Below, in pieces: positions 58,927-60,910 of a stretch of DNA of 64,000 nt (the stretch's first letter is position 1; each line of letters begins with the position of its first letter). Origin of the DNA: Natronococcus sp. AD-5 (lineage in GTDB: Archaea > Halobacteriota > Halobacteria > Halobacteriales > Natrialbaceae). The notes beneath the pieces are model-generated. The model had not been told where the DNA came from, ran no database searches, and saw only the letters and a list, made by a program, of their open reading frames with translations. The translations under genes and the position numbers were made by a program. Where the stretch lies: the NCBI RefSeq assembly GCF_030734285.1, contig NZ_CP132294.1, positions 806,001-870,000 of the forward strand, given 5' to 3'.

Positions 58927-59248
58927 GCGAGGGCTCCTGAAGGAGCGCAGACTCCGGACGTGACTTCGTTGTTAGTAGACGTTATCTGTACGAATACCGA
59001 CTGGTGCGGTTCGGACGGTTCGATCACCTCTCGAATCCGAAATTCTATGGTCACATTACCGTCAATAGGACCACCGTTCAACGGAGTAATGATGGGGCGG
59101 TATCCTGCTCAGATACCGATAGAATATGTTTCGTAATTGCTATTTTCTGCTAGAATAGTCGATCGGATTCCGGGTTACGTCGTGGAACGTGGTATTTATC
59201 ACTGAAATGGCAGTACCAGTTTAAGCGGCACGATGGTGCGTATCCAAA
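58927..59248 (+). other. Intergenic region, about 320 bp
   Basis: No gene. Just after pckA a GCTCC-TGAA-GGAGC hairpin (about 58933-58946) might assist termination. The middle is A/T-rich without repeats, and the right end carries the TATA box of the next gene. Confidence 0.45.
59219..59225 (+). promoter_or_regulatory. TATA-like box of sequon-array gene
   Basis: GTTTAAG lies 24-30 bases before ATG 59249. Confidence 0.55.
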
Positions 59249-60517
59249 ATGCGGGGCATGAGCGTACGAACCATACTCGTCGTGGTTGTTGCACTGATGG
59301 TACTGGGCTCCGGCGGAGCCGCAGCCGTTGCAGCGGGTCCCGCTGCAATGAGTGCAGACGAGCACGACAACAACGACACAGCGGAAGACGAACAGGATGA
59401 CGCTCCTGACAGCGAGGAGCGAAACATAACTATCGAAAACGCGACAATCATCGTCCACGTCGGCGACATCAGCGACTTCGATGCTGACGACATGGAGGAC
59501 CAAATCGGTGACAACGTCACCGACGAAGAGGACGAGAACGTCACTGAAGAAGACGACAATGTCACTGACGATGGACTCGACGACAACGTCACCGACGAAG
59601 ACGACAACGTCACCGACAACGGCGTCGACGAAAATGGTCTAGATGACAACGTCACGGACGACGGATTCGACGACAACGTCACGGACGACGGCGTCGCCGA
59701 AGACGATAACGTCACGGACGAAGACGATAACGTCACGGACGAAGACGACAACGTCACCGACAACGGCGTCGACGAAAATGGTCTAGATGACAACGTCACC
59801 GACGAGGAGGATGAACTCGACGGCGACGGAGAGGTGCTGCACGTGACGATCGAGCAGGCGACCATCTTCGTCGTCGTCGGAGACGGCGACGGGGTAAGTG
59901 ACGAGACCGGTGACACCGGCGTCGCCGAAGATGACAACGTCACCGACGAAGGTGACAACGTCACCGAAGACTGTCCTGATGACGAGGACGACGTCAACGA
60001 CTTCGACGATAACGACTACGGTGACGAGAACGATACCGCCGACACCAGCCAGGATGACGAGAGCGGCGTCGATAACGCCCACGCCTTCGAAGGAACGATA
60101 AAAGTGACCATCGAGGAAGTGACCGTTATCGTCATCGACGATCAGCAGGACGGCGAACCCGTCGATGACGAACCCGTCGCCGAAGACGACAACGTCACTG
60201 ATGACGGATTCGACGACAACGTCACGGACGACGGCGTCGCCGAAGACGATAACGTCACCGACGAAGACGACAACGTCACTGATGACGGATTCGACGACAA
60301 CGTCACGGACGACGGCGTCGCCGAAGACGACAACGTCACGGACGAAGACGACAACGTTACCGATGACGAATTCGATGACAACGTGACCGACGACGGTGCC
60401 GCCGAAGACGATAACGTCACGGACGAAGACGACAATGTCACTGACGACAACGTCACCGACAATGGCGTCAGCGACAACGTCACCGACAACGGCGAGGAAG
60501 CGGCGACGTCCTGCTAG
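59249..60517 (+). CDS. Secreted repeat protein with dense N-glycosylation sequons
   Basis: 422 residues. Sec-type signal: RTILVVVVALMVLGSGGAAA with cleavage probably near AVAAGPAA. The mature protein has 25 Asn-Val-Thr tripeptides, mostly in DDNVTDD or EDDNVTDED units, plus Asn-Ile-Thr, Asn-Ala-Thr and two Asn-Asp-Thr, all N-X-S/T sequons for AglB. Three short beta-type segments punctuate the array at about residues 58-74 (NITIENATIIVHVGD), 196-212 (HVTIEQATIFVVVGD) and 283-300 (KVTIEEVTVIVID). One Cys at about 248 and a C-terminal Cys; no PGF-CTERM or membrane helix. Probably an extracellular, highly acidic glycoprotein. The call as secreted is firm; function unknown. Confidence 0.85.
   Translation: MRGMSVRTILVVVVALMVLGSGGAAAVAAGPAAMSADEHDNNDTAEDEQDDAPDSEERNITIENATIIVHVGDISDFDADDMEDQIGDNVTDEEDENVTEEDDNVTDDGLDDNVTDEDDNVTDNGVDENGLDDNVTDDGFDDNVTDDGVAEDDNVTDEDDNVTDEDDNVTDNGVDENGLDDNVTDEEDELDGDGEVLHVTIEQATIFVVVGDGDGVSDETGDTGVAEDDNVTDEGDNVTEDCPDDEDDVNDFDDNDYGDENDTADTSQDDESGVDNAHAFEGTIKVTIEEVTVIVIDDQQDGEPVDDEPVAEDDNVTDDGFDDNVTDDGVAEDDNVTDEDDNVTDDGFDDNVTDDGVAEDDNVTDEDDNVTDDEFDDNVTDDGAAEDDNVTDEDDNVTDDNVTDNGVSDNVTDNGEEAATSC
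59510..60500 (+). repeat. Coding short-repeat array (DNVTDD units)
   Basis: Degenerate 15-24 base units built on GACGACAACGTCAC recur throughout, some longer blocks being near-identical (for example around 59640-59690 and 60280-60330). All are in frame, so copy number can change without frameshift. Not CRISPR: spacers are coding and repeats are not dyad-like. Confidence 0.8.
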
Positions 60518-60680
60518 GAGTCACTCCGTACGGTAACCGACTCCTTCCGCAGCTCGTTTTATTTGCGAACGCACCCCCTCGACTCGAGCCTCGCGTTCGG
60601 CGAGAAACTCGGACCGACGGCGTACGAGGGAGTGAGACCGCGTTAGCTGAACGGGCGGCAGCAATTGCCGGACACAGACA

Positions 60681-60688
60681 CCATTATG
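60681..60688 (+). promoter_or_regulatory. TATA-like box of HEWD gene
   Basis: CCATTATG, 25-32 bases upstream of ATG 60713, supports that start. Confidence 0.45.
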
Positions 60689-60712
60689 TGCGTCGAGTTC
60701 GCACACCCGGTA

Positions 60713-60910
60713 ATGAACGCACAGGTACGAAAACCGACGATGCGGGTATGCGAGGAGTGCGGGCGAGCCGAGCGGTGGGACGAGGACCTCGAGGCGTGGC
60801 AACTCGTCCGCGAGGACGGCGAACGACAGACCGGGAACCCCCACTGCATTCACGAGTGGGACATCAACGGCGCTTTCAACCCGATTACGGGGACGATCAA
60901 CGGCGCGTAG
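60713..60910 (+). CDS. Small HEWD-family protein
   Basis: 65 residues from ATG 60713. One Cys pair in RVCEECGRAERWDEDLEAW, a third Cys in GNPHCIHEWDINGAFNPITG, the HEWD segment that names a haloarchaeal family. The three Cys and His could form a small metal site. No role known. Start supported by a TATA-like box; longer in-frame forms are possible. A dense run of small genes follows. Confidence 0.82.
   Translation: MNAQVRKPTMRVCEECGRAERWDEDLEAWQLVREDGERQTGNPHCIHEWDINGAFNPITGTINGA

Follow-up and report, generated by a model that had tools for sequence, protein, structure and literature searches.

Do archaea use N-glycans in bulk as coat material, and not only as sparse decorations of S-layer proteins? 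Haloarchaea are known to N-glycosylate N-X-S/T sequons via AglB. The question is raised by a gene found in a 64,000-nucleotide stretch of the Natronococcus sp. AD-5 genome (referred to as the window). This gene (59249..60517, + strand, from the ORF listing) encodes a putatively secreted acidic repeat protein of 422 aa. An initial annotation of the window had counted 25 NVT tripeptides and four other sequons in the protein, and our recount is identical: 29 N-x-[ST] sequons, consisting of 25 NVT, 2 NDT, 1 NIT, and 1 NAT. Shuffles of the mature part (n = 5000) have 4.5 ± 1.9 sequons with a maximum of 12.

Gene organization and protein composition

Relatives start at the ATG corresponding to position 59258 (MSVRTIL...). 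In the upstream alignment, most orthologs have no in-frame ATG at the position of 59249 and begin with MSVR. Because both the orthologs and a conserved upstream block point to 59258, this is the more likely start codon. The upstream block, TTTATCACTGAAATGGCAGTACCAGTTTAAG (59195..59225, +), differs very little among the upstream regions of nine orthologs and is probably a promoter element. It includes an inverted repeat, ACTG-N6-CAGT (59201-59214, +), and a TATA-like TTTAAG (59220-59225, +). Related blocks exist also 5' of paralogs in many genera. Promoter regions are conserved far better than the linkers of the encoded proteins. Those of Natronococcus orthologs have TTTATCACTGAAATGGCAGTNCCAGTTTAAG with ACTG-N6-CAGT, and those of the DUF7282-type paralogs described below have in common GAAATGGTT...GGTTTATG and a TGCC...GGCA inverted repeat directly 5' of the start codon.

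The N-terminus, MSVRTILVVVVALMVLGSGGAAAVAA (59258..59335, + strand, approximate end), is a putative signal peptide. By inspection it is hydrophobic, has AxA-type residues, and is common to nine homologs, in agreement with the initial annotation. The three short beta segments proposed earlier are found at residues 58-71, 198-210, and 284-297 of a low-confidence AlphaFold2 model. They coincide with a conserved motif, VTIEQATIFV, and are located around NITIENATIIVHV (59420..59461), LHVTIEQATIFV (59840..59878), and IKVTIEEVTVIVID (60098..60139), all on the + strand. Because the model, built with 16 orthologs, is poor (mean pLDDT 46.7), it does not support a role for these strands. As delimited by sequon counts and tandem repeats, the NVT sequons (all + strand) exist as a first array of 11 in Asp/Glu repeats (59513..59800), two more between strands 2 and 3 (59936..59965), and a second array of 12 with a period of ~81 bases (60191..60484).

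The last codon (60512..60514, +) encodes Cys, which is the last residue in all complete Natronococcus orthologs examined. In several genera, family members without DUF7282 also often end with Cys or CxC (TSC, TAC, TSCSC, TNC, HCTC; examples besides the window protein are L012, L013, L104, L105, L108, and L117), and this is often the sole or nearly sole Cys of the mature protein. Is it a lipid anchor, or part of a disulfide or a metal site?

Asp/Glu account for 164 of the 422 residues (39%) and Lys/Arg/His for 8. A Pfam scan of the window protein found no matching family, DUF7282 (PF23951) included, and a PDB homology search with the window family found no homolog. Antisense ORFs across the array (SSSVTLSSS) were set aside as probable shadows of the repeats.

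A secreted, acidic, and repeat-rich protein with Thr in each unit could be an O- or mixed-glycosylated glycoprotein of the mucin-like or S-layer type. This is highly improbable here: 25 of the 33 Ser/Thr in the window-protein linkers are tied to sequons rather than arranged in Ser/Thr tracts, and the sequence has no C-terminal membrane helix, PGF-type tail, or Pfam match.

The array could also be a passive by-product, in which an acidic unit with a chance Asn-Val-Thr was amplified by repeat expansion and its sites are unused. One unit dominates the window array, and the gene has clear tandem periods of 21 and 81 bases, as such amplification would produce. Thr is present in all 25 NVT units despite mixed codons (ACC 12, ACG 8, and ACT 5).

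An acidic repeat family in Natrialbaceae

Judged from its sequence, the window protein is a member of an undescribed Natrialbaceae family in which a signal peptide is combined with recurring VTIEQATIFV strands and linkers of acidic repeats. When Natrialbaceae were searched with a profile built on the signal peptide plus the first motif, hits came from 91 of 125 genomes and 25 of 29 genera; at E ≤ 1e-6 the matches of this profile among 292 genomes of the class are exclusively in Natrialbaceae. Profile A1 scores the window protein at E 1.3e-37 in its own genome, and the protein has the features that define the family. Conserved elements are its signal peptide (MSxRNILVVVVALMVLGSGGA), the ten-residue VTIEQATIFV in three to six copies, and, in Natronococcus, the C-terminal Cys. 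In an open-access literature search we found no paper on this family or on a link between sequons and pH, which is not proof of absence.

Orthologs are located directly 3' of the ATP-type PEPCK gene in Natronococcus, Halopiger djelfimassiliensis, and Salinadaptatus halalkaliphilus. At the PEPCK locus of the other genera inspected, no ortholog is found between PEPCK and the HEWD, CutA, and L11 genes. In the window, a small HEWD-domain protein (60665-60910, +; PF20576, E 4e-31) is encoded between the acidic protein and CutA.

A second type of member has the common signal peptide and linkers plus DUF7282 (E 1e-39 to 1e-44), often with an Ig-like C-terminal domain, a weak Pfam match. The window genome encodes one such paralog (L121 3403-4263, − strand, near position 1505000 of C1). 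It has 287 aa and one strand-like motif and lacks the Ig-like domain, while those of genomes G004 and G008 have about 700 aa. Members of the DUF7282 type (for example L134, L123, and L129) end differently from those with Cys tails: the C-terminus is a short, conserved, hydrophobic stretch (AIGxxGL, IPIGVIGLV), possibly a sorting or retention signal.

Sequon arrays among orthologs

The initial annotation proposed comparing repeat number among strains and searching for similar proteins. Comparison of repeat number shows that the array is not a fixed feature of the protein. The array is absent from most Natronococcus orthologs, and of ten other orthologs in the comparison, eight keep the signal peptide and the strands but have only 0-2 sequons. 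Glycans are therefore not the universal function of the protein. There are no sequons in Natronococcus amylolyticus, N. sp. A-GB1, N. sp. A-GB7, the CSSed10 MAG, G003, and N. pandeyae (partial), and the linkers of these sequon-free orthologs consist of stretches such as DEEPVDEE and DDYENDEA. The ortholog of N. jeotgali has 16 sequons (NES/NDS) and that of G008 has 12, mostly NDS. In the PEPCK tree, the window gene groups with the sequon-poor N. pandeyae, whose sequence ends at a contig end.

Nor is the array unique. The search found separate arrays of different units in other genera, and the number of sequons per protein reaches 41 (in Natrinema versiforme). The array is recurrent and switchable.

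Both observations bear on passive repeat expansion. The closest available ortholog, the partial N. pandeyae sequence, has no sequons, the linkers change rapidly, and different units prevail elsewhere, all as this explanation expects. Against it, the arrays of other lineages consist of different units with several sequon kinds per protein.

Non-random spacing of sequons

The comparison covered 78 members (71 genomes, 22 genera), and a linker was defined by a 25-residue window with ≥32% Asp+Glu. In these linkers there are 676 cases of Ser/Thr two residues after Asn (+2) and 8-119 for any one of the 15 remaining offsets (-8 to +8). Such within-protein counts are inflated and not independent because of tandem duplication, and members of one genus are related. 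At the genus level a plain sign test gives only 16 up, 5 down, and 1 tie (p = 0.027). The excess is not seen in forty other plausible ORFs of the window, where Ser/Thr occurs 18 times at +2 and 17-34 times at other offsets.

Sequon counts are bimodal. Half of the members (39 of 78) have 0-5 and the other half 9-34; none has 6-8, and the cut-off for sequon-rich members (≥9) was chosen after this gap was seen. Sequons include 658 of the 783 linker Asn (84%) in the rich set and 29 of 567 (5%) in the poor set. Proteins with ≥15 sequons have 4 to 11 sequon kinds, whose middle residue is Glu, Val, Asp, Ala, or Ile. Of 25 NP[ST] triplets, just 2 lie within linkers, each at an edge of its linker. Thr occupies 86% of linker sequon positions vs 77% of other linker Ser/Thr.

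These numbers make passive expansion unlikely. A single amplified unit does not account for 4-11 sequon kinds that differ in the middle residue, nor for the near absence of NP[ST] from linkers. Of the 16 offsets tested, +2 alone stands out. Sequons are also more numerous in the folded DUF7282 domain when the member is rich (2.15) than when it is poor (0.25). The spacing, the kinds of sequons, and the retained Thr are better explained by selection for AglB sites than by passive growth of repeats. Selection for N-glycosylation would be expected to leave N-x-S/T spacing far above chance, as seen here, and a dense glycan brush is therefore the best reading of the arrays.

Another possibility is that the linkers are chiefly cation-binding repeats similar to the thrombospondin-type-3 D-x-[DN]-x-[DN]-G, with Asn as a substitute for Asp. 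By inspection, units of poor members such as DADDNGVDDADD resemble D-x-D-x-N-G calcium loops, and all members are extremely acidic. Ser/Thr at +2 from Asn is, however, not predicted by cation binding, and no Pfam calcium repeat was matched in the members scanned. As an explanation of the arrays it is quite improbable, though cation binding and glycosylation could coexist.

Changes between sequon-rich and sequon-poor states

The window genome encodes AglB (PF02516, E 2e-18, with the WWDYG motif). AglB is found in 116 of 125 genomes, in 108 of the 111 good ones, and in all nine Natronococcus, and it is equally common in sequon-poor and sequon-rich lineages. Since the enzyme is nearly universal, its absence was ruled out as the cause of poor orthologs, and its presence fails to explain the switch. 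A secretome-wide lack of sequons in poor species was also ruled out, by a different DUF7282 protein (about 370 aa) that has 4-8 sequons in poor species and 6-11 in rich species.

The PEPCK tree of 36 taxa implies about six changes between the rich and poor states, at least five of which are forced by supported branches, and the repeat units differ between lineages. The linkers of DUF7282-type paralogs are likewise sequon-rich or sequon-poor. Where both paralog types are present, their states tend to agree, as in G008 (12/9), G025 (10/17), G004 (0/0), G103 (0/2), and G020 (2/2). In G023 they differ (3 and 19), and the second paralog of the window genome, which is short, has 3 sequons.

Proposed role of the acidic linkers

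We put at roughly two in three the probability of the following reading. The protein would be a Sec-exported, mostly disordered polyanion whose linkers have become N-x-T arrays in this species, most likely as AglB substrates, giving a glycan brush at the surface or in the matrix. Most likely it is exported by Sec and stays disordered in high salt, where it would act as a polyanionic spacer that holds water and cations. The beta motifs, spaced by acidic linkers, may be weak contact points, although this is a guess. In this species most linker units would bear an N-glycan, and the result would be a negatively charged brush. In most sister species the linker is purely Asp/Glu-rich, without sites. 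The dense brush proposed in the initial annotation gains partial support from AglB in the genome and from N-x-S/T spacing far above chance over 22 genera, but the array is not fixed in the protein.

Haloarchaeal N-glycans often contain acidic sugars. Asp/Glu content is lower in rich than in poor members (0.35 vs 0.41, p 5e-7 with relatedness ignored), which suggests that glycans replace some of the peptide charge. Since close relatives have 0 to 41 candidate sites and AglB is nearly everywhere, a comparison of existing orthologs could show what dense N-glycosylation does to a disordered acidic protein.

Sequons and growth pH

What could favor one state over the other? We tentatively consider that linkers change repeatedly, in a nearly all-or-none way, between a bare polyAsp/Glu brush in haloalkaliphiles and an N-glycan brush in neutrophiles, with a tendency of paralogs in a genome to agree; this is possible but doubtful. 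Poor members are mostly from alkaliphiles and rich members mostly from neutrophiles, a suggestive pattern only, in which the pH classes of many species are assumed. The only four independent pairs run in the expected direction (p = 0.125), with one probable exception to the pattern. In Natronococcus, N. jeotgali is rich and N. amylolyticus is poor. All 14 Natrinema members are rich, and the published optimum of this genus is pH 6.0-8.2 (PMC8530250). Haloterrigena members (pH 7.0-8.0; PMC8530250) are rich, and Natronorubrum members (pH 7.0-10.0) are poor. In Natrialba, N. asiatica (optimum pH 6.6-7.0; PMC3403918), N. taiwanensis, and N. aegyptia are rich, and N. hulunbeirensis, SSL1, and N. swarupiae are poor. 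Two genomes count against the link: G054, probably the alkaliphilic Nab. magadii, has 9 sequons, and Halopiger djelfimassiliensis, with an optimum of pH 8 and a range of 7-11 (PMC3910545), is poor. Should the link be borne out, it would be a clear example of an environment that predicts how a surface polymer is built.

Comparison with known systems

The nearest relatives are the secreted haloarchaeal DUF7282 (PF23951) proteins. Paralogs of this type have the signal peptide and linkers of the window family, but the domain itself is not in the window protein. Thrombospondin type 3 calcium repeats have no Pfam match among the members scanned. The window protein also differs from haloarchaeal S-layer glycoproteins: it has no Pfam S-layer match, and its C-terminus, DNVTDNGEEAATSC, has no hydrophobic helix.

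Other likenesses are by description. Halomucin of Haloquadratum walsbyi is a secreted and acidic protein proposed to form a protective surface coat (PMC4535781, PMC4243693), but it is giant, unlike the window protein. Natronococcus occultus, of the same genus as our strain, has at its cell surface glutaminylglycan, a glycosylated polyglutamine (PMC4243693). This is a gamma-linked polymer and not a genome-encoded protein; G003, which is probably N. occultus, has an ortholog of the window protein without sequons. In Haloferax volcanii, no protein is reported to have more confirmed N-glycosites than HVO_2160, with 19 (PMC8241124). It is secreted, as the window protein probably is, and has many AglB-type sites. 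HVO_2160 is, however, the largest Hfx. volcanii protein, while the window protein has 29 candidate sites in 422 residues, most of them in acidic repeats that are probably disordered. Among the known systems compared, the AglB-dependent N-glycoproteins are matched by the window protein in its excess of sequons and by its genome in the presence of the oligosaccharyltransferase PF02516.
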